NCBI RefSeq assembly: GCF_002214465.1
Contig: NZ_CP015101.1
Location: 1,495,013 to 1,559,012, forward strand
From: Thermococcus barossii
GTDB taxonomy: Archaea; Methanobacteriota_B; Thermococci; Thermococcales; Thermococcaceae
Reading direction: 5' to 3'
Length of the DNA: 64,000 nt
Part shown: positions 8,046-20,223 of the stretch, piece by piece
How positions within the stretch are numbered: position 1 is the first letter of the stretch
How the letters are laid out: each line of letters begins with the position of its first letter
Program-made: the position numbers and the translations under genes
Notes under the pieces: generated by a model
What the model was told of the DNA's origin: nothing
The model's input: only the letters and a program-made list of their open reading frames with translations
The model's database searches: none

Positions 8046-9236
8046 ATGGCGGAGTACAAGCCGATTAGGAAGGTTGTGAGCGGCAACTACGCCGCCGCGT
8101 ATGCCGTCAAGCACGCCCGCGTTGAGGTCGTCGCGGCTTACCCGATCACTCCCCAGACGAGCATCATCGAGAAGATAGCCGAGTTCTTGGCCAACGGCGA
8201 GATCGAGGGGCTTGAGTACGTTCCGGTGGAAAGCGAGCACTCGGCCATGGCGGCCTGTATAGGAGCGAGCGCCACCGGCGCCAGGGCCTTCACAGCCACC
8301 TCTGCCCAGGGTCTGGCTTTGATGCACGAGATGCTTCACTGGGCCAGCGGAGCGAGGTTGCCAATAGTCATGGTTGACGTCAACCGTGCCATGGCTCCCC
8401 CATGGAGCGTCTGGGACGACCAGACGGACAGCCTGTCACAGAGGGACACCGGCTGGATGCAGTTCTACGCCGAGAACAACCAGGAAGTTTACGACGGTGT
8501 GCTCATGGCCTTCAAGATAGCCGAGACCGTCAACCTTCCAGCGATGGTTGTCGAGAGCGCCTTCATCCTGAGCCACACCTACGACGTTGTGGAGATGATT
8601 CCACAGGAGCTCGTTGACGAGTTCCTCCCGCCGAGGAAGCCCCTCTACACCCTCACCGACTTCGACAACCCGATAGCCGTGGGTGCCCTCGGTGGCCCGA
8701 ACGACTACTACGAGTTCCGCTACAAGATACAGAAGGCCATGGAGAAGGCCGAGAAGGTTATCCACGAGGTTGGAAAGGAGTTCGGTGAGCGCTTTGGAAG
8801 GGACTATAGCCAGATGATAGAGCTTTACAGGACGGAGGACGCTGACTTCGTCTTCATGGGCATGGGCTCGCTCATGGGAACCGTCAAGCAGGCGGTGGAT
8901 ATTCTCCGCGAGGAGGGCTACAAGGTCGGAGCAGCCAAAGTCCGCTGGTTCAGGCCGTTCCCGAAGAAAGAGCTCTACGAGCTGGCAAAGAGCGTTGAGG
9001 GCATAGCCGTCCTCGACAGGAACTTCTCCTTCGGACAGGAGGGCATACTCTTCAACGAGGCCAAGGGAGCGCTCTACAACACCGACGCGAAGCCGCTCAT
9101 CAAGAACTACATCGTCGGCCTTGGCGGAAGGGACTTCACCGTGAACGACGTCAGGAAGATAGCCGAGAACATGAAGGCGATAATCGATAAGGGAGAGCTT
9201 GATGTAGAGGTGGACTGGTACCACCTTAAGAGGTGA
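8046..9236 (+). CDS. vorA: 2-Ketoisovalerate:ferredoxin oxidoreductase alpha subunit
   Basis: Alpha (pyrimidine-binding type) subunit of the enzyme that oxidises branched-chain 2-keto acids to acyl-CoAs. Family segments AAYPITPQTSIIEKIAEF, VPVESEHSAMAACIGASATG and [20 protein letters not shown] are all present. Length is 396 aa. It is a clear paralogue of porA 2.5 kb downstream, differing mainly in the middle region that shapes substrate preference. It overlaps the upstream region of vorB. Confidence 0.94.
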   Translation: MAEYKPIRKVVSGNYAAAYAVKHARVEVVAAYPITPQTSIIEKIAEFLANGEIEGLEYVPVESEHSAMAACIGASATGARAFTATSAQGLALMHEMLHWASGARLPIVMVDVNRAMAPPWSVWDDQTDSLSQRDTGWMQFYAENNQEVYDGVLMAFKIAETVNLPAMVVESAFILSHTYDVVEMIPQELVDEFLPPRKPLYTLTDFDNPIAVGALGGPNDYYEFRYKIQKAMEKAEKVIHEVGKEFGERFGRDYSQMIELYRTEDADFVFMGMGSLMGTVKQAVDILREEGYKVGAAKVRWFRPFPKKELYELAKSVEGIAVLDRNFSFGQEGILFNEAKGALYNTDAKPLIKNYIVGLGGRDFTVNDVRKIAENMKAIIDKGELDVEVDWYHLKR

Positions 9237-9241
9237 GAATG

Positions 9242-10177
9242 ATGGAGATTCCAGAGAACGTTAAGAAGAGGTTGAGCATCCCCGCTGACGAGCACTTTTA
9301 CGCCGGCCACACGGCCTGTCAGGGCTGTGGGGCCTCCCTCGGCATCCGCTACGTGCTGAAGGCCTACGGAAGGAAGACCATATTCACAATCCCGGCGTGC
9401 TGTTCAACCATCATCGCCGGTCCCTGGCCGTACACCGCCTTCGAGGCAAACCTGTTCCACACGGCCTTCGAGACCACCGGTGCAGTAATGAGCGGCATCG
9501 AGGCGGCACTCAAGGCCAAGGGCTACAAGGTTAAGGGCGAGGACGGAGTAATGGTCGTTGGCTGGGCCGGCGATGGAGGTACCGCAGACATAGGCCTTCA
9601 GGCACTGAGCGGATTCCTTGAGAGGGGCCACGATGCGGTTTACATAATGTACGATAACGAGGCCTACATGAACACCGGAATCCAGAGGTCGGGTTCAACA
9701 CCCTACGGAGCCTGGACAACGAACACCCCCGGTGGAAAGAGGCACTTCCTCGAAAAGAGGCACAAGAAGAAGGTCATTGACATAGTCATAGCCCACGAGA
9801 TACCCTACGCCGCCACGGCGAGCATCGCCTTCCCGGAGGACTTCATAAGGAAGCTCAAGAAGGCCCAGAAGACCCCTGGACCGAGCTTCATTCAGCTCTT
9901 CGCACCGTGCCCGACCGGCTGGCGCTCGCCAACCGACAAGAGCATTGAGCTCGCGAGGCTCGCGGTTCAGACAGCATACTTCCCGCTCTTCGAGTACGAG
10001 AACGGAAGGTACAAGATCAACATGCCCTCAACCAAGAAGGAGCCGAAACCGATAGAGGAATTCCTCAAGCTCCAGGGCAGATTCAAGTACATGACCAAGG
10101 AGGACATAGAGATACTCCAGAACTGGGTGCTCCACGAGTGGGAGAAGCTCAAGAAGCTCGCCGAGGTCTTCGGCTGA
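9242..10177 (+). CDS. vorB: 2-Ketoisovalerate:ferredoxin oxidoreductase beta subunit
   Basis: TPP-binding subunit with one [4Fe-4S] cluster. Visible are CQGCGASLG and a later Cys (IPACCSTI) for cluster binding, the TPP motif [18 protein letters not shown], and [16 protein letters not shown]. The ATG at 9242 lies 5 bases after AGGTGA and gives M-E-I-P and 311 residues, the usual length; the ATG at 9239 is too close. A 66-base gap with a possible TATA (GGTTTAAG, near 10203) separates it from porD, so an internal promoter is possible. Confidence 0.94.
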   Translation: MEIPENVKKRLSIPADEHFYAGHTACQGCGASLGIRYVLKAYGRKTIFTIPACCSTIIAGPWPYTAFEANLFHTAFETTGAVMSGIEAALKAKGYKVKGEDGVMVVGWAGDGGTADIGLQALSGFLERGHDAVYIMYDNEAYMNTGIQRSGSTPYGAWTTNTPGGKRHFLEKRHKKKVIDIVIAHEIPYAATASIAFPEDFIRKLKKAQKTPGPSFIQLFAPCPTGWRSPTDKSIELARLAVQTAYFPLFEYENGRYKINMPSTKKEPKPIEEFLKLQGRFKYMTKEDIEILQNWVLHEWEKLKKLAEVFG

Positions 10178-10243
10178 GCTTTCCATCTTTAATTCCTCGC
10201 AAGGTTTAAGTTTCAATATGATAATTCACCTGAGGTGATAAAC

Positions 10244-10561
10244 ATGGCCGAGAGTCCGTTTAAGGCCGACATCGAGAGGGTTCAGAAGGAGTATAGCGAA
10301 AAGATGACCCCGGGAGCGATAGCAACCATCCCCGGGAGCAGCGTGATAAACAAGACCGGTTCCTGGAGAGTTTTTATGCCCGAGTTCTACAAGGACAAGT
10401 GCGTCCGCTGCTATCTCTGCTACATCTACTGCCCCGAGCCTGCCATCTACCTCGACGAGGAGAACTACCCGGTCTTTGACTACGACTACTGTAAGGGCTG
10501 TGGGATATGTGCCAACGAGTGCCCGACGGATGCCATCATAATGGTTAGGGAGACCAAGTGA
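10244..10561 (+). CDS. porD: Pyruvate:ferredoxin oxidoreductase delta subunit
   Basis: 105-residue double [4Fe-4S] ferredoxin subunit of POR, with CVRCYLCYIYCPEP and CKGCGICANECPT. It differs from VorD mostly in the N-terminal 35 residues, which probably dock it to its own alpha-beta pair. The ATG at 10244 follows AGGTGAT by 4 bases. It passes electrons from PorB to ferredoxin. Confidence 0.94.
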   Translation: MAESPFKADIERVQKEYSEKMTPGAIATIPGSSVINKTGSWRVFMPEFYKDKCVRCYLCYIYCPEPAIYLDEENYPVFDYDYCKGCGICANECPTDAIIMVRETK

Positions 10562-10572
10562 GGTGGTGAAAG

Positions 10573-11757
10573 ATGCCGATGAGAAAGGTTATGAAGGCCA
10601 ACGAAGCCGCCGCCTGGGCGGCCAAGCTCGCCAAGCCGAAGGTCATAGCGGCCTTCCCGATTACGCCATCAACGCTCGTTCCAGAGAAGATTAGCGAGTT
10701 CGTCGCGGATGGGGAGCTTGACGCAGAGTTCATCAAGGTCGAGAGCGAGCACTCCGCCATTTCAGCCTGTGTGGGTGCCTCCGCTGCGGGCGTAAGAACC
10801 TTCACCGCCACAGCCTCCCAGGGTCTCGCCCTGATGCACGAGATACTCTTCATCGCCGCAGGGATGCGCCTTCCGATAGTCATCGCCGTTGGAAACCGCT
10901 CCCTGAGCGCTCCTATCAACATCTGGAACGACTGGCAGGACAGCATAAGCGAGCGCGACACCGGCTGGATGCAGTTTTACGCCGAGAACAACCAGGAGGC
11001 CCTCGATTTAATCCTCATCGCATACAAGGTCGCCGAGGACGAGCGCGTTCTCCTCCCGGCGATGGTCGGCTTCGACGCGTTCATACTCACCCACACCGTC
11101 GAGCCGGTCGAGATTCCGGATCAGGAGCTCGTTGACGAGTTCCTCGGCGAGTACGAGCCCAAGCACGCCTACCTCGATCCGGCCAGGCCGATAACCCAGG
11201 GCACCCTCGCCTTCCCGGCCCACTACATGGAGGCCCGCTACACCCTCTGGGAGGCCAACGAGAACGCGAAGAAGGTCATTGACGAGGTCTTTGCCGAGTT
11301 CGAGAAGAAGTTTGGAAGAAAGTACCAGAAGATAGAGGAGTACAGGACGGAGGATGCCGAGATAATCTTCGTCACGATGGGCTCGCTCGCCGGTACAGTC
11401 AAGGAGTACGTCGACCACCTCCGCGAGAAGGGCATCAAGGCCGGTGCTGCCAAGCTCACCGTCTACAGGCCGTTCCCGATCGAGGAGGTAAGGGCGCTGG
11501 CGAAGAAGGCGAAGGTTCTCGCGCTCCTTGAGAAGAACGTCACCTTCAGCGTCGGCGGAGCTCTCTTCCAGGACTTCAGCAGGGCTTTGATAAACGAGAG
11601 CGAGAAGCCGGTCATTGTTGACTTCATCCTCGGCCTAGGAGGAAGGGACGTCACCTTCAAGGACCTCGACGAGGCACTCGCGATTGCCCAGAAGGCCCTC
11701 AACGGGGAGGAGTTTGACGAGGTCAACTGGATCGGCCTGAGGAAGGAGATTCTGTGA
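10573..11757 (+). CDS. porA: Pyruvate:ferredoxin oxidoreductase alpha subunit
   Basis: Alpha subunit of POR, which converts pyruvate and CoA to acetyl-CoA, CO2 and reduced ferredoxin. Landmarks are [57 protein letters not shown] and [13 protein letters not shown]. The 394-residue length agrees with the Pyrococcus subunit. The ATG at 10573 has GAGGTGGTG upstream. It sits between porD and porB as in other Thermococcales. Confidence 0.95.
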
Positions 11758-11767
11758 GGTGATGAAG

Positions 11768-12763
11768 ATGGCCGTTAGAAAACCCCCGATTACCACTCGC
11801 GAGTACTGGGCACCCGGGCATGCAGCCTGTGCCGGATGTGGCTGTGCCACCGCTCTGAGGCTCGCCACCAAGGCCTTCAGCGAGGCCATGGAGGAGAAGT
11901 ACGGCGATCCAAACGCCTTCGCCATAGCCCAGGCCACCGGATGTATGGAAGTTGTCTCAGCCGTCTTCCCCTACACCGCCTGGAAGGCCCCGTGGATCCA
12001 CGTGGCCTTTGAAAACGCGGCCGCTGCTGCGAGCGGTGTCGAAGCAGCATGGAAGAAGCTCGGGAGGAAGGGCAAGATACTCGCCATAGGCGGTGACGGT
12101 GGTACCGCCGACATCGGTATGCAGGCCCTCAGCGGCATGCTTGAGCGCTGGCACAACGTCGTTTACCTCATGTACGACAACGAGGCCTACATGAACACCG
12201 GAATACAGCGCTCAAGTTCAACACCCTACGGTGCTTGGACCACCACCAGCCCGCCGGGCAAGTACTCCATCGGTGAGGACAAGCCCAAGAAGTGGGTCGC
12301 GCTTATAGCCGCCGCCCACCAGGTTCCGTACGTCGCAACGGCTAGCATAGGCAACCCCTTCGACTTCGTCAAGAAGATGAAGAAGGCCGCTAAAGTCGAC
12401 GGCCCGGCCTTCGTCCAGGTCCAGTGCACCTGCCCGACCGGCTGGAAGAGCCCGCTGGAGAAGGGCGTCGAGATTGCCCGCCTGGCTATAGAGACCGGCG
12501 TCTGGCCGCTCTTCGAAATCGAGAACGGCGACCTCTGGAACATCAAGATACAGAGCCCCGGCGGAGGAGCGAAGGTCAAGCGCGAGGGAGGAAGAGTCGT
12601 CGCCATAGAGTTCAAGAAGCCCATCGAGGAGTACCTTAAACTGCAGGGCAGGTTCAAGCACCTCTTCAAGCAGCCGGAAGCCATAGACGTCATGCGCGAG
12701 CAGATCAAGGCCATGTGGAAGGTCCTCGGTGTGGACGTCACCCTCCCGAAGCCGGAGGAGTGA
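11768..12763 (+). CDS. porB: Pyruvate:ferredoxin oxidoreductase beta subunit
   Basis: TPP subunit of POR. It has the cluster-binding [10 protein letters not shown] and [17 protein letters not shown], the TPP motif [16 protein letters not shown], and [20 protein letters not shown]. The ATG at 11768 is 5 bases after AGGTGA and gives the canonical M-A-V-R-K-P-P start and 331 residues. It is the last gene of the seven-gene oxidoreductase operon; the next gene is convergent and starts a different locus. Confidence 0.95.
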
Positions 12764-12802: not shown

Positions 12803-13264
12803 TCAGTCCACCGCATCCTTAAAGGCCAGTGCAAGCGCTCTGACGCAGTTCTTCACCTCATCGCTTACCTCCATCCAGTCTCCGGGCTGACAGCCAAGGA
12901 GAACGAACCGGGTCTCGGGAAGCAACTCGGCCAGATGGTCAAGCGTAACCCTGAGCTGGAACCGAAAGTCCTGGGGGATGTCTCCCATGGCCTCCCAGGG
13001 GTCGGCAACGACCACTCTACCAGGCTCGCCCCCAAATTCAAGGGGAACGGCTATTATCACAAGCTCGGGACGGAAGCGTATTATAACCCCCGCCTGGCTC
13101 TCCGGCACGTCGTGACAGTTGATGGAACGGAAGTTTGGGTTCTCGACCGCCACTGAAAGGGCCTCCGCCAGATAAGCTCCGAACCCGTAATCCCCGCGCT
13201 TTTCGTTGCCCAGGCCGCAGATAACAACCCTGCGTGCGTCCCCGATTATCTCGTCCACTCGCAC
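12803..13264 (-). CDS. HycI/HyaD-like hydrogenase maturation protease
   Basis: Member of the nickel-dependent endopeptidase family that trims the large subunit of NiFe hydrogenases. The first motif reads GLGNEKRGDYGFG where the family usually has GxGNxxxxDDGxG, so the second acidic residue, a metal ligand in HycI/HybD, is Tyr. A VPES segment and IIAVPLEFGG follow. Length is 153 aa. It is the last gene of the CODH operon, 21 bases after a CooF-like gene, yet no hydrogenase structural gene is in the window. It may act in trans or have another role. Confidence 0.7.
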   Translation of the reverse strand: MRVDEIIGDARRVVICGLGNEKRGDYGFGAYLAEALSVAVENPNFRSINCHDVPESQAGVIIRFRPELVIIAVPLEFGGEPGRVVVADPWEAMGDIPQDFRFQLRVTLDHLAELLPETRFVLLGCQPGDWMEVSDEVKNCVRALALAFKDAVD

Positions 13265-13285
13265 GGCCGAACCTCCAAAAAGGTG

Positions 13286-13810
13286 TCAGAGGAGAACATA
13301 GCCAGAACTAACGCTCTCCTTCAGCTCCTCCTCCGTAAGCTCCCTCCTGTGTTCGGGGATGTTCTTGGCGCGCCTCTCGTTGACCAGCTCCAGAACCATC
13401 TCCAGTGGGCCGTACTGGATGGCCTCCGCCGGACACATGAGTGCGCACGCCGGTTCCAGCCCCTCCTCGCGCCTCTCCGCACACATGTCGCACTTGGTTA
13501 TCGCCCTGACCTTGAGGCTGTAGAAGGGAACGCCGTACGGGCACACCTGGAGGCAGGCGAGACAGCCGATGCACCTGTTCTCAGCTATCCTCACGGCCCC
13601 GTCCTCGTCCCGGTAGATTGCGTTAGTCGGGCACACCCTCACACAGGGTGCATCGTCGCAGTGCTTGCAGTTTATCGGCACGTACTGCTTGTTCTCCGTG
13701 ACGTATATCCTGATGTGCGGGCTCCCATCGTGGATGAAGGCGCAGACCGTTTCACAGGTCTCGCAACCGATGCAGGTGAGATAGTCGAGGTAGAGGTACT
13801 TCCTCTCCAT
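13286..13810 (-). CDS. CooF/HycB-like polyferredoxin (second copy in the CODH operon)
   Basis: Iron-sulfur electron carrier with four cysteine groups suited to four [4Fe-4S] clusters: CIGCETCETVC, CKHCDDAPCVRVCP, CIGCLACLQVCP and CDMC...CALMCP. Length is 174 aa. It resembles the CooF upstream of cooS but is shorter at the N-terminus. Start and stop overlap: its ATG at 13810 overlaps the stop of the flavin oxidoreductase by one base. It probably links the flavoprotein to CODH or another partner; the direction is not known. Confidence 0.85.
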   Translation of the reverse strand: MERKYLYLDYLTCIGCETCETVCAFIHDGSPHIRIYVTENKQYVPINCKHCDDAPCVRVCPTNAIYRDEDGAVRIAENRCIGCLACLQVCPYGVPFYSLKVRAITKCDMCAERREEGLEPACALMCPAEAIQYGPLEMVLELVNERRAKNIPEHRRELTEEELKESVSSGYVLL

Positions 13811-14862
13811 CAGGACTCACCCCTGAGCCACCTGTCCATTGATACCGCCGCATAGAGGCCGTCCTTTATCGCCCTGCCGACCTTTGTGGGGCCGTTGACA
13901 ACATCGCCGGCCGCGAAGATTCCCTCAACGCTCGTCATGTGCCTGGAATCAACGAGAAGCCTCCCCCTCCTGTCTGTTGCCAGGTAGGAGCCGTTCACCG
14001 GTGGGGTGGATACCATGCCTATGGCGAAGACGAGGTAGTCCAGCTCCACCTGGAACTCCGAGCCCTCAATAGGTATCGGCCTCCTCCTCCCGCTCTCGTC
14101 TGGCTCGCCGAGGCGGGTTCTGAGGAGTTCAATGGCCTTGACGCGACCGTTCTCACCTATCACCCGCTTTGGGGTCACGAGCTCGAACCACTTGACCCCC
14201 CTGTTCCGGAGGATGTTTATCTCGTAGGCACCCGCCGGTGCTTCCCTTATCGTCCTGCGGTAGAATATCTCCACCTCCGCACCGAGGCGGTTGCACTCGA
14301 AGGCCACGTCCACCGCCGTAAGTCCTGCACCTATTATGCCCACCTTCTTGCCCCTTAGCTGTGGAACCTTCTCCTCGGGGACGTAGCCGAGTTCATGGCC
14401 CTTTATCCAGAAGAGGAGCTCCAGCGGCGAGAGAATTCCCTCAAGGTCGTCCCCCGGGATTCCAATCCTCCTGACGTTCCAGATTCCTGTGGCTATCAGG
14501 ACGGCGTCGTAGTTCTCCCTGAGCTCGCTTAGCCTGACGACCCTCTCGTAGAACTCATCGCCTTCATCTTCCCTTTCGCCCTCCATGACCTTCGTCTTGG
14601 GGTAGTACGTTACCTCGAACTCCTCCTCAAGCTCCTTGGCACCGAGGCGAACCCTCTCAACCGGGATTCTGAACTCAGGGATCACGAAGAGCATCAAACC
14701 CCCGGGCTCGGGCATCTTGTCGTAGATATCAACGTCATGTCCCCTGCAGACGAGGTAGCCGGCGGCGGTCAAACCGGCGGGGCCGGCGCCGACTATGGCT
14801 ATCCTCTTTCCTGTCCTCTGGGGTTTCCTTTTGCATAGAAACGAAAACTTCATCCCCCTCAT
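13810..14862 (-). CDS. GltD-like FAD/NAD(P)-dependent oxidoreductase
   Basis: Flavoprotein of the glutamate synthase small-subunit / sulfide dehydrogenase type. Two Rossmann sites are clear: FAD site VGAGPAGLTAAGYLVCRG and NAD(P) site GIIGAGLTAVDVAFECNRLG, with EPGGLMLFVIPEFRIP and the C-terminal AAGDVVNGPTKVGRAIKDG. The usual N-terminal Fe-S domain is absent; separate ferredoxin genes lie on both sides instead. The ATG at 14862 overlaps the upstream stop (ATGA), giving 350 residues. Context suggests transfer of CO-derived electrons to NAD(P)+, an inference from gene order. Confidence 0.85.
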   Translation of the reverse strand: MRGMKFSFLCKRKPQRTGKRIAIVGAGPAGLTAAGYLVCRGHDVDIYDKMPEPGGLMLFVIPEFRIPVERVRLGAKELEEEFEVTYYPKTKVMEGEREDEGDEFYERVVRLSELRENYDAVLIATGIWNVRRIGIPGDDLEGILSPLELLFWIKGHELGYVPEEKVPQLRGKKVGIIGAGLTAVDVAFECNRLGAEVEIFYRRTIREAPAGAYEINILRNRGVKWFELVTPKRVIGENGRVKAIELLRTRLGEPDESGRRRPIPIEGSEFQVELDYLVFAIGMVSTPPVNGSYLATDRRGRLLVDSRHMTSVEGIFAAGDVVNGPTKVGRAIKDGLYAAVSMDRWLRGES

Positions 14863-15338
14863 TTGAGCATTCCCCCAAAGAACCTGAGGTATTCGCTCGG
14901 GAACTCCTTGACGCGGTCGTGTTTGCACCTGTCGCACATGAAGACGACCTCTGGATGGTCGTAGAACCTCTCAAGCTTATGGTAGAGGAACTCCGCGGTC
15001 TTGACCGTGTAGTCCAGCTTTTTACCACAGACCTGGCAGTGGGCGTACTCGAATTCCAGGTCAATTCTGTCGGGACGGCCCTCGATGGCCTTCGTTGGAC
15101 ATATGTCGTTGCACTCGTAGTTACACTCCCCGCAGAGCTCGGGGTGGAACGAGATGACCCTCTTTTCGTTGTCGATTACGAATATCGCGTTGTGGGGACA
15201 CACCTGGGCGCAGAGGCCACAGCCTATGCAGGCATCGGCCTTGAGGCCTCTCCTCTCCGGAGTTTCCGGGACTTCACTTGAGGTTGAAGCCGGAGCCTTC
15301 CCTTCCCTCCCGAATAACCCCCTGATGCGCTTGAACAT
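14859..15338 (-). CDS. HycF/NuoI-like ferredoxin with C-terminal CxxC pair
   Basis: 159-residue iron-sulfur protein. The first half has two cluster motifs (CIGCGLCAQVCPHN and CGECNYECNDICPT). The second half has CQVCGKK and CDRCKHDR separated by about 30 residues, a zinc-ribbon or rubredoxin-like arrangement also found in HycF/HyfH subunits of formate hydrogenlyase. So it looks like a hydrogenase-complex subunit recruited to a CODH operon. It follows cooS by 33 bases and overlaps the flavoprotein gene. Confidence 0.8.
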   Translation of the reverse strand: MFKRIRGLFGREGKAPASTSSEVPETPERRGLKADACIGCGLCAQVCPHNAIFVIDNEKRVISFHPELCGECNYECNDICPTKAIEGRPDRIDLEFEYAHCQVCGKKLDYTVKTAEFLYHKLERFYDHPEVVFMCDRCKHDRVKEFPSEYLRFFGGMLK

Positions 15339-15371
15339 TCTCCCACCTCAAAAGGGAATAAAAAAGGGAGC

Positions 15372-17342
15372 TCAGATGCCGAGCTCCTTCCTCTTCTTCA
15401 TTATGTGGTCGTACATCAGCTTTGCCGCCTTGTAGGGGTCGGGCTCCACTATGAAGGCCGCCCCCACGATGTCGTACAGGTCCTGCGTCAGTATCTTAAC
15501 CACCTTTGGACCTCCGAGGACAGGTGGTATTATGCCGAGGTGCGTGGTAATTCCGCTGGCCACGAAGTAGGTTCCTATCGAGACGGCCTTCTCCGTCATG
15601 GCCTCCGGGGCGGAGCCGACGACGGGCAGTGCCGAGATCGGAACGTTGAGGTCCCTCGCGATGAGGTCGGCTAGAACCAGCATCCTGGTACAGTCAACGC
15701 ACGAACCCATGTTGAGGGCTGGAGGTATGCCCCATTCCTTGGCGAACTCCCTGAGGCCCGGCCCCACGTTCTCGGTGTCGGCGTATTCCGGCAGGAAGAT
15801 GCCGTATTTCATGGCCGCTGTGGCCCAGCAGCCCGTTCCTATGAGGAGAACGTCCCTCTTCATCAGCTCGTTGGCTATCTTGATGTGGTTGTGGTCCTGC
15901 TTTATCTTCGGGTTGTTGCAGCCGACCAGACCGGCGACGCCCTTTATCTTGCCCTCCACTATCGCCTCCTCCAGGGGCTTGAGGGAGCCTCCGAAGTGCT
16001 TGAGTATGGCCTCGACGCTGAAGCCAACGTAGCCGGCCATCTTCTCCTTCGGTATCTCGACCCTCTGCTTGGACCTGTTCGGGAAGTTCTCGACGGCGGT
16101 CTTCACTATCTCCTTTGCGATCTCGTCAGCCCTCCTCTCGTCGAACTTGATGTGTATAGCTCCCGGGAAGGTTGCCAGCGGGCTGGTGTCTATTATCTTG
16201 GTGTGGAAGCACCTCGCCACATCAACCGTTGCGGGCATTATACACTGGACGTCGACCACCATGGCCTCGACCGCGCCGGTGACTATGGCCATCTCCTGCT
16301 GGAGGAAGTTGCCCGCTATGGGTATGCCGTGCCTCATGAGAACCTCAAGACCGGTGCAGCACATTCCGACGACGTTTATGCCCTTCGCACCGAGCTTCTG
16401 GGCCAGCTCGATCAGCTCGGGGTCCTGCGCGGCCTCAACTATCTTCTCGGAGAGAACCGGCTCGTGGCCGTGGACGACTATGTTGACGTAGTCCTCCTTG
16501 AGCACCCCGAGGTTGGCCTCGGCCTTTATGACCTGCGGCGTGCCGAAGAGTATATCCTGGAGTTCGGTAGCTATGAGCGAGCCTCCCCACGCATCGCCAA
16601 GGGACGTCTTCAGGCCGTGGAGGAGTATGCTCACCGGGTCGTGGTCGGTTCCGATGTGGGTTCTGTGAAGGCTCTCAACTATCTCCCTGTCTATCCCCCT
16701 CGGCAGGATGCCGTTCTCGAACCAGGGCATACCTGCCTTCTCGGCGGCCTTCTCGAATACCTCGTAGGTCTTGGGGTTGAGGTAGGCCTTGAGGAACGCC
16801 AGAGCCTCCTCATCCTGCTTCCCGAAATCATGAAGCGCCACTTCGGCAACTTCCTTGGCGAGCTCCCTGATGGTCTTGCCCTCGGTCTCGATTCCGAGCC
16901 TCTCTGCAACGGCCTTCAGCTTCTCGACGTCCCTGACTTGATAGGGCAGGGTGCTTGACGCCATGTTGTCCAGCTCAAGGACTGGCTTACCTTCCTTCTT
17001 GAACTTCTCGGCCATTTCCGCCGCTATTAGAAGGGTCAGGGCAACGTGTCGCCCATGGTCACTGTGGGCGGCCGCACCCGCCGCTATCATCCTGAGAAGG
17101 TTTCTGGCAACTATGGTATCGGCATCTGCACCGCAGACACCCCTCCTCGGCTCACCCCCGAAGGGGTTGATCCTGCACGGTCCCATCATACAGTTCCTGC
17201 AGCAGACACCAAGGAGACCGTAACCGCACTGTGGCTGCTGCTTCTCAAGCCTCTCCCAAACGGTCTCGATGCCCATCTCCCGGGCCCGTTCGTACATCTG
17301 CTGGGTGGTACTATCTATGGAGACTTCCTTATACTTCTTCAT
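15372..17342 (-). CDS. cooS: Carbon monoxide dehydrogenase, catalytic subunit
   Basis: Ni-Fe enzyme that oxidises CO to CO2 and passes two electrons to CooF. Cysteines 39 and 47 (D cluster) and 48, 51, 56, 70 (B cluster) fall at the same numbers as in Carboxydothermus CODH-II. C-cluster ligands are present: HGH 291-293, Cys329, Cys367, Cys475, Cys505 and Cys548. The proton-path histidines 93, 96 and 99 are kept, as is the EKAVSIGT lysine. Length 656 aa. The ATG overlaps the cooF stop by 4 bases. No acetyl-CoA synthase genes are near, so this is a monofunctional CODH. Confidence 0.96.
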   Translation of the reverse strand: MKKYKEVSIDSTTQQMYERAREMGIETVWERLEKQQPQCGYGLLGVCCRNCMMGPCRINPFGGEPRRGVCGADADTIVARNLLRMIAAGAAAHSDHGRHVALTLLIAAEMAEKFKKEGKPVLELDNMASSTLPYQVRDVEKLKAVAERLGIETEGKTIRELAKEVAEVALHDFGKQDEEALAFLKAYLNPKTYEVFEKAAEKAGMPWFENGILPRGIDREIVESLHRTHIGTDHDPVSILLHGLKTSLGDAWGGSLIATELQDILFGTPQVIKAEANLGVLKEDYVNIVVHGHEPVLSEKIVEAAQDPELIELAQKLGAKGINVVGMCCTGLEVLMRHGIPIAGNFLQQEMAIVTGAVEAMVVDVQCIMPATVDVARCFHTKIIDTSPLATFPGAIHIKFDERRADEIAKEIVKTAVENFPNRSKQRVEIPKEKMAGYVGFSVEAILKHFGGSLKPLEEAIVEGKIKGVAGLVGCNNPKIKQDHNHIKIANELMKRDVLLIGTGCWATAAMKYGIFLPEYADTENVGPGLREFAKEWGIPPALNMGSCVDCTRMLVLADLIARDLNVPISALPVVGSAPEAMTEKAVSIGTYFVASGITTHLGIIPPVLGGPKVVKILTQDLYDIVGAAFIVEPDPYKAAKLMYDHIMKKRKELGI

Positions 17343-17944
17343 TTCGACTCCCCCTCATTAATACGAATAATTTCGGCGTACATGGACCTGAAAAGGTCCC
17401 AACCGTTGTATTCCTCCTCGTACGTGCCTTCCTTCAGCTTGATTATCTTCTCAGCGGTCTCCTTCCTGACCTGCGAGACTACCTCGTCTATGGTGCCGAA
17501 CATCAGCGCTCCGGTCTTGCACGCCTCAACACAGGCGGGCGGTCTGCCCTCGGCCCTCCTGTCGGGGCACAGGTCGCACTTGAACATCACGCCGTTGAGG
17601 GCTTCGAACTCGGGGATACCGAATGGACAGACGATGGCACACATCTTACATCCGATGCACTTCTCGGGAGTTATCATTACCGCGCCGTCCTCGTCATGGT
17701 AGAGCGCGCCGGTGGGGCATACCTCAACGCACGGTGCGCCGTCGCAGTGCCGGCAGTTCATGGGCACGTTGTAGGCGCCCATCGGCAGGATGTGTATCCT
17801 CGGCAGAGGCAGGGGGTCCTCAAAGATCGCCGAGAACAGGTCCTTGCTCTGGGAATGCTCCACTGCACACGCTATCTCACACTGCCGACATCCAATGCAC
17901 TTTGCTGGATTTATGAAAATGGTAGGCTTTGAATCGGTGGGCAT
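17339..17944 (-). CDS. cooF: CODH iron-sulfur electron-transfer protein CooF
   Basis: Polyferredoxin that accepts electrons from CooS. Four cysteine groups are visible: CIGCRQCEIACAVEHS, CRHCDGAPCVEVCPTGA, CIGCKMCAIVCPFG and CDLC...CVEACKTGA. Length 201 aa matches CooF. The ATG at 17944 follows GGTGAT. It is the first gene of a leftward operon of six genes ending at 12803, with small overlaps or gaps throughout. Confidence 0.93.
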   Translation of the reverse strand: MPTDSKPTIFINPAKCIGCRQCEIACAVEHSQSKDLFSAIFEDPLPLPRIHILPMGAYNVPMNCRHCDGAPCVEVCPTGALYHDEDGAVMITPEKCIGCKMCAIVCPFGIPEFEALNGVMFKCDLCPDRRAEGRPPACVEACKTGALMFGTIDEVVSQVRKETAEKIIKLKEGTYEEEYNGWDLFRSMYAEIIRINEGESK

Positions 17945-18280
17945 AGGAAATCACCGTTGTTCTTTTTGACGTATATTTTATAAATTCCTTTCCGTTTTAA
18001 CATGAAACCATGGAGTAGTCTTTAAAATTGTAACAAGAAACTCGAAAAAACACAACAATGCAATAAATAGAGGCCAGATACGCCCTCCAGCGAGATAACT
18101 ACCCAAAAGTGTGAAACCAAAGGTTATACATTCCTGTCCACTAAATGTCATTTACAAAAGACTGTACATCGATTCCAAGAAAATGGTATTGAGTACCCAA
18201 AGCTGTTGAATCAATGAGTTCGAACATCAAACCTAAAAGCATTTATATCGCCGTATTTCAATCATTAGAGGTGCTCGACT
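17945..18280. promoter_or_regulatory. Divergent cooF / cooC control region
   Basis: This 336-base AT-rich gap holds no credible gene. TTTATAAA at 17977-17984 fits a TATA box for the leftward cooF operon, and TTTATAT at 18243-18249 fits one for cooC, about 30 bases before its ATG. The middle 230 bases are long for this genome and may bind a regulator. I found no obvious inverted repeat and no CorQ/CorR-like regulator gene nearby. Confidence 0.55.
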
Positions 18281-19198
18281 ATGGCGAAACCCTTGAATCC
18301 CAAGGATGAGGAGAGGAGAAAGAAACTGTTTGAAATCGCAGATGAGCTGAGAGAGAGGACAAAAAAACAGGTTCCCGAGGAAGGTTTTAGGGTCGTGATA
18401 ACGGGCAAGGGCGGTGTTGGAAAGACCACGATGACAGCCCTTCTCGCAAGACTCCTTGCCAGGGACGGCTATCGCGTTCTGGCCGTTGATGAAGACCCCC
18501 AGATGAACCTCGCACACGCCCTCGGCGTTCCAAAGGAAGTGAGGGACAAGATAATCCCCCTCAACAGAAACCTTGACTACATCGAGGAGAAGACGGGAGC
18601 GAGGCCGGGCACCAACTGGGGACTGTACTTCTCCCTCACCCCCGATGTCAGGGACGTCGTTGACCGCTTCGGCGTCGTTGGGCCGGACGGTGTCATGCTC
18701 CTCGTCATGGGGAGCGTTGTCCAGGCTGCGGCCGGCTGTCTCTGCCCCGAAAACGCCCTCCTCGATGCCGTCATCAAGTACATAAACCTCAGGAAGGGAG
18801 AGATAATCCTGATGGACACCCAGGCCGGACTGGAGCACTTTGGAAGGGCTCTGGCAAGGGGCTTCAAGCAGGCGGTTATACTCACCGAACCGACCTACAA
18901 CTCCGTCCAGGTGGCGGTGGACGCGGCAAAACTGGCGAGACAGTTGGGCATCGAACACATCCACCTGGTCATCAACAAGGTGAAGAAAGAAGCCCACGTG
19001 GAAAAGGTTGAGAGAATCCTGAACGAGCTCGGCTTTAACGACTTCACAACGAAGACCGTGATACCATACGACGAAATGGTTGAGGAGTACGACCCCGAGA
19101 TAGAGGCAATACTCACCAATCCAGAGTCACCGACCTACAGGAAGGCCCTGGAGCTGAAGGATATCCTTCTTAGGTACGCGGAACAGCCAGAACGCTGA
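18281..19198 (+). CDS. cooC: CODH nickel-insertion ATPase CooC
   Basis: MinD-type ATPase that helps load nickel into the CooS C-cluster. The deviant Walker A GKGGVGKTT spans residues 42-50, with VDEDPQMNL after it. The metal-binding C-x-C pair (Cys153-Leu-Cys155, in GCLCPENALL) that marks CooC is present. Compared with bacterial CooC it has an N-terminal extension of about 35 charged residues. The ATG follows GAGGTG. It is divergent from the cooF-cooS operon across a shared control region. Confidence 0.92.
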   Translation: MAKPLNPKDEERRKKLFEIADELRERTKKQVPEEGFRVVITGKGGVGKTTMTALLARLLARDGYRVLAVDEDPQMNLAHALGVPKEVRDKIIPLNRNLDYIEEKTGARPGTNWGLYFSLTPDVRDVVDRFGVVGPDGVMLLVMGSVVQAAAGCLCPENALLDAVIKYINLRKGEIILMDTQAGLEHFGRALARGFKQAVILTEPTYNSVQVAVDAAKLARQLGIEHIHLVINKVKKEAHVEKVERILNELGFNDFTTKTVIPYDEMVEEYDPEIEAILTNPESPTYRKALELKDILLRYAEQPER

Positions 19199-19320: not shown

Positions 19321-20223
19321 ATGACCATAAAAGCTCCCACACTCAACATAGGCGGACTGGGCGCTGATCCCCTCACCCAGAGGATAAACGAGAAACAGGA
19401 GAAGTGGAAGTACAAAATAGCCGTCCTGAGCGGCAAAGGTGGTGTCGGCAAGAGCACCGTGGCGGTTAACATAGCCGCGGCCCTGGCAAAGAAGGGCTAC
19501 TTCGTTGGAATACTCGACGCAGACATACACGGCCCGAACGTCGCCAAGATGCTCGGCGTTGACAGGGCGGAAGTTCTGGCCGAGAAGATGGAAGACGGCA
19601 GGTTCGAGATGATACCGCCGATGAACGACTTCCTGGGCCAGACGACCCCGATAAAGGTCATGAGCATGGGATTCCTCGTCCCGGAGGATCAGCCGATAAT
19701 CTGGCGCGGCGCTCTGGTCACAAAGGCCATCAAACAGCTCCTCGGCGACGTCAAGTGGGGCGAGCTCGACTTCATGATAGTTGACTTCCCTCCGGGAACG
19801 GGCGACGAGATACTAACCGTAACCCAGACCCTCAAGCTCGATGCTGCCGTTATAGTCACCACCCCCCAGGAGGTCGCTTTGCTCGACACGGGCAAGGCAG
19901 TGAACATGATGAAGAAGATGGAAGTGCCCTACGTGGCCGTCGTGGAGAACATGAGCTACCTCATCTGTCCCCACTGCGGCAACGAGATAGACCTCTTCGG
20001 CAAGGGCGGTGGAAGGAAGCTCGCCGAGAAGGAGGGGGTTGACTTCCTTGGGGAGATTCCCATCGATCTCAAGGCCAGAGAAGCCAGCGACGCTGGAATA
20101 CCGATAGTCCTCTACGAGGACACAGTCGCCGCCAAGGCATTCATGGAGATAGTTGACAAGCTCGTGGCGAAGCTCGAAGCCATGAAAGGTGAAAAGAACC
20201 AAGAGGAACCCGGGGAAGAGTAA
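19321..20223 (+). CDS. Mrp/ApbC/Nbp35-family Fe-S cluster carrier ATPase
   Basis: Soluble P-loop ATPase that carries and delivers [4Fe-4S] clusters. The deviant Walker A GKGGVGKST is at residues 38-46, LDADIHGPNV follows, and the bridging-cluster motif CPHC is at 216-219. Length 300 aa is typical for archaeal Mrp. The ATG follows GGAGGTGA. Its position beside the CODH locus may reflect a supply of clusters, but Mrp is a general factor. Confidence 0.92.
   Translation: MTIKAPTLNIGGLGADPLTQRINEKQEKWKYKIAVLSGKGGVGKSTVAVNIAAALAKKGYFVGILDADIHGPNVAKMLGVDRAEVLAEKMEDGRFEMIPPMNDFLGQTTPIKVMSMGFLVPEDQPIIWRGALVTKAIKQLLGDVKWGELDFMIVDFPPGTGDEILTVTQTLKLDAAVIVTTPQEVALLDTGKAVNMMKKMEVPYVAVVENMSYLICPHCGNEIDLFGKGGGRKLAEKEGVDFLGEIPIDLKAREASDAGIPIVLYEDTVAAKAFMEIVDKLVAKLEAMKGEKNQEEPGEE

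Follow-up and report, generated by a model that had tools for sequence, protein, structure and literature searches.

A cooS operon in Thermococcus barossii

The 64,000-nucleotide stretch of the Thermococcus barossii chromosome analysed here (the window, genome positions 1.495–1.559 Mb) carries cooS, the gene of a carbon monoxide dehydrogenase (CODH), in an operon with genes for three small iron-sulfur proteins, a flavoprotein and a relative of the hydrogenase maturation protease HycI. Our analysis indicates that this operon probably encodes a soluble CO:NADP+ oxidoreductase. Judged from its sequences, it is a chimera of a CODH head and a downstream cassette of the type found in Fdh3, a formate:NADP+ oxidoreductase of Thermococcus onnurineus.

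The operon lies on the minus strand (17944–12803) in the order cooF1-cooS-fdx-FNOR-cooF2-hycI-like, and every gene is an open reading frame. An initial annotation of the window had placed the first five genes correctly and passed over the hycI-like gene (13264–12803), which falls within the same span. Its description of the genes as overlapping holds for three of the five junctions, which measure, from 5' to 3', −4, +33, −4, −1 and +21 nucleotides (nt): cooF1 and cooS share 4 nt, the start of cooF2 overlaps the FNOR stop by 1 nt, and two junctions are short gaps. The spacing is nearly identical in eight other genomes compared. Since the junctions are short or overlapping and near-constant across these genomes, the six genes very likely form one transcript. 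The FNOR reading frame most likely starts at the ATG at 14862, with a 4-nt overlap with fdx, and not at the upstream GTG at 14937. Ratios of nonsynonymous to synonymous substitution rates (dN/dS) of 0.02–0.21 over all six operon genes show purifying selection, which is strongest on CooS and weakest on Fdx and the HycI-like protein.

The carbon monoxide dehydrogenase head

The first gene, cooF1 (17339–17944), encodes the electron-transfer subunit of CooS, with 16 cysteines in four motifs. It is followed by cooS (15372–17342), the Ni-CO dehydrogenase catalytic subunit, which matches the profile TIGR01702 with 697.7 bits at a cut-off of 478 bits. Relatives were sought in 94 Thermococcaceae genomes, among which we take G025 to be T. 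onnurineus, G032 strain AM4 and G018 T. gammatolerans. The assignment of G025 fits the published description (PMC8965080) both in its fdh3 locus and in where the arginines R204-R205, discussed below, are located.

When CooS is aligned with its T. onnurineus and AM4 counterparts, the ligands of the D-, B- and C-clusters are all kept (C39, C47, C48, C51, C56, C70, the histidine of an HGH motif, C328/C329, C367, C475, C505 and C548). CooS and CooF1 are each 57% identical to their T. onnurineus homologues. In a tree of 16-cysteine proteins, CooF1 groups with the CODH-type CooF (support 98/94), apart from Fdh3G1 and from CooF2/Fdh3G2. The CooF1-CooS pair groups with the hydrogenase-type CODH. The predicted nickel-insertion ATPase CooC, a P-loop protein of the CbiA/ParA type, is encoded divergently from the operon (18281–19198, plus strand) and shares 39% identity with CooC from the codh cluster of T. 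onnurineus. Relatives also have cooC divergent beside cooF1, and the layout is consistent with that of TcCODH-I of strain AM4, for which a survey in eLife (2026) places cooC on the opposite strand (PMC13056359).

The Codh-Mch-Mnh cluster of T. onnurineus, in which a CODH is combined with a hydrogenase and an antiporter, has homologous CooF, CooS and CooC. It differs from the operon described here in that no hydrogenase or antiporter is linked to the latter, for which the predicted acceptor is NADP+ and not H+. We found no hydrogenase or antiporter genes linked to cooS in the 64-kb window. The genome, a single contig that is 99.97% complete, holds cooS in one copy; its homologues of hydrogenase large subunits all map beyond the window, at 165, 565 and 609 kb and at 1.598 and 1.607 Mb, and no Mch-type hydrogenase cluster was found beside cooS or elsewhere in the genome. 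The initial proposal that the CODH lacks a linked energy-converting hydrogenase is confirmed, and a search of the genome for a second, hydrogenase-linked cooS found none.

A cassette shared with formate dehydrogenase

Downstream of cooS follow three genes that have a close parallel in a different enzyme. The first, fdx (14859–15338), encodes a protein of the HycF/TON_0541 type with two predicted [4Fe-4S] clusters and a C-terminal CxxC..CxxC metal site; nearly all of its 12 cysteines are invariant. The best match of its AlphaFold model is HycF of the E. coli formate hydrogenlyase (7z0s_F, E 5.9e-9), C-terminal part included, which bears out its first description as a HycF-like ferredoxin. Its sequence is 44% identical to TON_0541 of the fdh3 operon, compared with 31% to the hydrogenase HycF.

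The second gene, FNOR (13810–14862), encodes a flavoprotein of the GltD/Fdh3B type with predicted FAD and NADP(H) sites, for which NF009409 (PRK12770, GltD-like) is the best family with 498 bits, above the cut-off. The best solved relative, the large subunit of P. furiosus NfnI (5jca_L), aligns only from residue 151 on, so the flavoprotein lacks an N-terminal Fe-S domain, as had also been read from the sequence at the outset. Two other assignments were rejected: that of an Nfn, since the N-terminal Fe-S domain and an NfnS partner are both missing, and that of a COG1251 NADH oxidase, since the score of 35.5 bits with NF046103 is far below its cut-off of 600.

The third gene, cooF2 (13286–13810), is the second CooF of the initial annotation and likewise encodes 16 cysteines, so that CooF1 and CooF2 each have room for four [4Fe-4S] clusters. 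The tree of 16-cysteine proteins places CooF2 with the Fdh3G2 proteins, of which it is an orthologue, and not with CooF1, and the split between these halves has a support of 100/99; some long branches in the CooF and FNOR trees make the placement of the outgroup unsure and leave this split unaffected. The FNORs of CODH operons form one clade (100/100).

FNOR is 60% identical to Fdh3B and CooF2 55% to Fdh3G2 of T. onnurineus, and the gene order there, fdh3A-fdh3G1-TON_0541-fdh3B-fdh3G2, parallels cooF1-cooS-fdx-FNOR-cooF2: both operons share the downstream cassette. The Fdh3 locus of T. onnurineus NA1 (TON_0538-0543; PMC8965080) also has the same arginine pair and a 16-cysteine subunit beside the catalytic subunit. 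It differs in having a tungsten formate dehydrogenase as catalytic subunit in place of CooS, a first Fe-S subunit from another branch, and a formate transporter where the operon here has cooC and the hycI-like gene. The arginine pair, R202-R203 in the YRR motif of FNOR, corresponds to R204-R205 of Fdh3B and is invariant in the 11 proteins aligned; in Fdh3B it has been proposed to bind the 2'-phosphate of NADP (PMC8965080).

Purified Fdh3 consists of Fdh3A, Fdh3B, Fdh3G1 and Fdh3G2, and its activity of 77.4 U/mg with NADP+ compares with 11.2 U/mg with NAD+ (PMC8965080). With ferredoxin it reaches 0.83 U/mg, about 1% of the NADP+ rate; added ferredoxin gave no stimulation of NADP+ reduction, and TON_0541 was absent from the preparation (PMC8965080). 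Of the two functions first suggested for the CODH operon, CO-dependent reduction of NAD(P)+ is accordingly the better supported, sharpened to NADP+ by the Fdh3 homology and the arginine pair, while a ferredoxin/NAD(P) exchange complex is weakened by these same Fdh3 data.

Is the cassette confined to these two enzymes? A FNOR paralogue, 59–64% identical, occurs in many Thermococcaceae without a CODH-I-type cooS and in some with one, and in most contexts examined it is flanked by an upstream fdx and a downstream cooF2-like gene. The cassette or parts of it stand beside soluble hydrogenase I, beside an F420-type hydrogenase and formate dehydrogenase, between formate hydrogenlyase and the hydrogenase Mbh, or alone (loci L087, L082, L085, L088 and L099–L108). 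Because the contexts vary in this way, from CODH and Fdh3 to hydrogenases and isolated copies, Fdx-FNOR-CooF2 looks like an exchangeable NADP module.

Outside Thermococcus, no cooS neighbour of FNOR was among the matches listed in a non-exhaustive contig scan (from the FNOR alignment, with two short patterns and 198 candidates). Relatives of FNOR outside the Thermococci (the set of L109, L113 and L122) stand with an FdhA-like gene on contigs of metagenome-assembled genomes (MAGs) from the Desulfobacterales, where the contig could be a binning error, and from the Thermoprotei; in a MAG of the Desulfovibrionaceae, the neighbour is a cooF2-like gene.

Distribution among Thermococcaceae

An intact cooS of the CODH-I type is present in 16 of the 94 Thermococcaceae genomes, that of the window included, and the CooS proteins of the other 15 are 95–98% identical to the one studied here. 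In all 16, fdx-FNOR-cooF2 lies directly downstream of cooS, and the hycI-like gene follows the cassette, truncated in two of the loci (L037 and L040). A second type of cooS, that of the hydrogenase-linked enzymes (about 60% identical), is found in other genomes, and only AM4 (G032) has both types.

The arrangement is therefore neither unique nor unusual: the same six-gene order recurs in the majority of 15 further Thermococcus genomes. Nor is the operon new, since that of CODH-I has been described for AM4 (PMC13056359) and the CODH genes have been noted in T. gammatolerans (PMC2718504). In the latter they are not clustered with a hydrogenase, and CooS and CooC were detected on sulfur medium (PMC2718504). 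The operons of AM4 (TcCODH-I) and T. gammatolerans are orthologous to the one described here, with CooS 95–96% identical, a divergent cooC and the six genes in order; apart from the hydrogenase-type cooS of AM4, where T. barossii has a single cooS, nothing important differs.

Two genomes depart from this picture. In G054, an internal TGA breaks cooS (contig C31, locus L048), and FNOR, located on another contig (C62, locus L090), contains both a TGA and a TAG, while the Fdh-type FNOR paralogue is open: in this one genome, cooS and FNOR decay together. In G043, a cooF-cooS pair occupies the same chromosomal site (L047, 7135–9619), with CooS 71% and CooF 62% identical to those of the window and serine in place of one otherwise conserved cysteine (Cys 551).

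A probable path from CO to NADPH

How might the parts work together? We infer from homology that the proteins form a complex, that electrons pass through it along a defined path and that NADP+ is the acceptor; the fate of the NADPH and the roles of Fdx and the HycI-like protein are put forward in the same conditional sense. The C-cluster of CooS would oxidise CO to CO2, with electrons leaving via the D-cluster. CooF1, with its four predicted [4Fe-4S] clusters, would accept them from the CooS dimer and hand them to the four of CooF2, from which they would reach the FAD of FNOR and finally NADP+. The net reaction would be CO + H2O + NADP+ → CO2 + NADPH + H+. At standard textbook potentials, this reaction yields about −39 kJ/mol, so no bifurcation would be needed to drive it.

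Two points suggest a place for CooF2 beside FNOR: Fdh3 is active in the absence of TON_0541, and the models of the E. coli proteins AegA and YgfT match, within a single polypeptide, one part resembling CooF and another resembling GltD. This order along the path is an assignment by analogy. Fdx could serve as an accessory docking or relay protein, given that the core of Fdh3, as purified, does not include its homologue TON_0541. The NADPH formed might feed biosynthesis, sulfur reduction, or H2 production through soluble hydrogenase I. As to its origin, the enzyme probably arose when a cooF1-cooS head, matured by the divergently encoded CooC, was joined to the NADP cassette of Fdh3.

Coupling to NADP+ is favoured by the cassette shared with Fdh3, by the invariance of the arginine pair and by the preference of Fdh3 for NADP+. 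A soluble CO:NADP+ oxidoreductase is further supported by the presence of the cassette in all 16 intact CODH-I loci and the joint decay of cooS and FNOR in G054; by the tree, which splits CooF1 from CooF2, the single clade of CODH-operon FNORs and the purifying selection on all operon genes; and by a precedent in extracts of Geobacter sulfurreducens, described below, together with the production of CooS and CooC by T. gammatolerans on sulfur.

Several points weigh against this reading. The G043 locus has no fdx, FNOR, cooF2 or hycI-like gene, so a related CODH manages without the cassette; conversely, the cassette could act free-standing, as it is found beside hydrogenase genes and alone. The position and role given to Fdx rest on the lack of TON_0541 in one preparation. 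Finally, we found no biochemical or expression data on the flavoprotein or the complex of this operon in the literature, of which Benvenuti et al. (2020), who reportedly characterised CooS1 and CooS2 of AM4, was not covered.

The free-standing occurrence of the cassette also speaks for another route, in which CooS-CooF1 reduces soluble ferredoxin that travels to the distant Mbh for H2 formation and ion pumping; the FNOR cassette would then work on its own as a ferredoxin:NADP+ reductase, with only the transcript in common. The genome would allow it, as it encodes soluble hydrogenases and, at about 1.6 Mb, an Mbh-type hydrogenase whose NiFe motifs are intact, and Fdh3A alone slowly reduces ferredoxin (PMC8965080). 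We nevertheless regard this route as improbable: in Fdh3, the catalytic subunit was purified together with the flavoprotein and Fdh3G2, and NADP+ reduction falls when ferredoxin is added (PMC8965080); moreover, cooS and the cassette stay together in every intact case and decay together in G054.

The homology of FNOR to the bifurcating NfnI large subunit raises a further question: could the FAD couple CO, ferredoxin and NADP+ in a single bifurcating or confurcating reaction, as in Nfn, and so save part of the energy of CO? Ten [4Fe-4S] sites are predicted in the three small Fe-S proteins, and Fdx might provide a docking site for ferredoxin. Against this, no NfnS-like second flavoprotein is encoded among the operon genes, FNOR is without the N-terminal Fe-S domain, ferredoxin and NADP+ do not act synergistically in Fdh3 (PMC8965080), and the potential of CO is already low enough for direct ferredoxin reduction. 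Bifurcation at this enzyme would come as a considerable surprise.

Beyond the direct transfer of electrons from CO to NADP+, a bolder claim can be put forward only tentatively, at somewhat less than even chance: that this is the first dedicated CO:NADP+ oxidoreductase complex, made by swapping the head of an Fdh3-type enzyme for a CODH head and assembled with a protease-dead HycI. If true, Thermococcales would use one exchangeable NADP cassette on CODH, formate dehydrogenase or hydrogenase heads. The direct transfer to NADP+ by itself already provides a testable fate for the electrons of CO in those Thermococcus that have a CODH and no CODH-linked hydrogenase, namely NADPH in place of H2. It also suggests that Thermococcales build their redox enzymes from interchangeable modules, a point of interest for engineering CO-driven NADPH regeneration at high temperature.

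Parallels in bacteria and the purpose of CO oxidation

Operons that combine CooS, CooF and a FAD-NAD(P) flavoprotein are also known from bacteria, including G. sulfurreducens (GSU2098-2095), Clostridium and C. hydrogenoformans (CODH-IV). Extracts of CO-grown G. sulfurreducens, which has such a cooS-cooF-FNOR operon, reduced NADP+ with CO and formed no H2 (PMC4703632). The bacterial flavoprotein is of the COG1251 or NADH-oxidase-like type (PMC6344411, PMC4703632), in contrast to the GltD/Fdh3B type found here, and the archaeal operon adds a second 16-cysteine subunit, a HycF-like protein and a HycI-like protein. On account of this difference in family, the archaeal and bacterial FNORs are analogous and not orthologous, which suggests that archaea and bacteria reached the coupling of CO to NADP+ in parallel, via different flavoprotein families.

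The bacterial systems also offer a different purpose for the same chemistry: CO oxidation and the NADPH it supplies may mainly protect the cell against CO or reactive oxygen and not support growth, a function proposed for CODH-IV of C. hydrogenoformans. Bacterial CODH-FNOR clusters have been tied to the oxygen response (PMC6344411, PMC4703632), and in T. gammatolerans CooS and CooC are present even when no CO is supplied (PMC2718504). The conserved unit, however, consists of six redox and assembly genes, and within the window no oxidative-stress gene belongs to it. A role in stress or detoxification is thus a plausible minority view, and one that could hold alongside a CO:NADP+ oxidoreductase, with which it shares the mechanism.

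A HycI relative without metal ligands

The last gene of the operon (12803–13264) encodes a protein with the fold of HycI. Its AlphaFold model (pLDDT confidence score 93) best matches T. kodakarensis HycI (5zby; TM-score 0.88, 34% identity), in which the metal ligands are D, D and H; the same positions hold Y, V and F here. We scored this triad as D16/E16, D62 and H90–93, with the numbering of E. coli HycI and HybD. None of the operon copies examined retains D62 or the histidine, and the first ligand is kept, as Glu, in L043 only. The same genome also encodes a HycI paralogue in its hyp operon (L080), which has all three ligands, and hyp-operon HycI genes are the nearest relatives of the operon protein.

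An active maturation protease was rejected on the loss of these ligands. The dN/dS of 0.07–0.19 against relatives indicates that the gene is maintained, and on this ground a decaying pseudogene was rejected for most species; yet the gene is truncated in the two loci named above. By its residues, then, the protein is a conserved pseudo-protease, predicted to be protease-dead. We propose that it descends from a hydrogenase maturation protease and acts in assembly without proteolysis, and its conservation would point to an assembly factor that has gone unrecognised.

Might the HycI-like protein and Fdx instead be leftovers of a lost CODH-hydrogenase operon and not working parts? The likeness of Fdx to HycF, the usual service of HycI to hydrogenases and the two truncations would fit such a history. 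It is nonetheless unlikely, considering the purifying selection on both genes (dN/dS 0.08–0.21 for fdx), the greater identity of Fdx to the Fdh3-operon ferredoxin than to the hydrogenase HycF, and the hyp-operon affinity of the hycI-like gene.

Divergent promoter region and neighbouring genes

The 336-bp region between cooC and cooF1 (17945–18280) has TATA-like boxes for both directions. An alignment of 10 orthologous intergenic regions reveals a conserved element around AACCTTTGGTTTCACAC, with an AACCnnnGGTT palindrome at 18115–18125. The full 17-nt element has an exact match only once in the genome, at this site, while the short palindrome by itself is no rarer in the window than expected by chance. 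Of the extended SurR motif, the palindrome recalls one half (AACn5GTT) and lacks GTTn3AAC; it does not match an EnfR site.

Two observations concern complexes far from the operon. At 565–573 kb of the genome (L070, 9120–16968), genes encode an Mbh-like complex of the membrane that includes antiporter-type subunits and whose large subunit has neither of the two CxxC NiFe motifs. It is for this reason probably no hydrogenase, and as a candidate Mch-type hydrogenase it was ruled out. At about 170–175 kb (L069, 11864–16526), a 600-residue NuoF-like protein and a 958-residue NfnA-like GltD-fusion protein are encoded beside soluble hydrogenase genes; this pair is possibly a bifurcating complex.

Next to the operon, cooC is adjoined by a gene for a Mrp/NBP35-type Fe-S carrier ATPase (19321–20223), as it is in L032, L034, L045 and L047. 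On the other side, subunit genes of a 2-oxoacid:ferredoxin oxidoreductase of the POR/VOR type (9233–12763) run convergently with the CODH operon, and genes of this type also neighbour it in the relatives L032, L033, L034, L042, L045 and L046.

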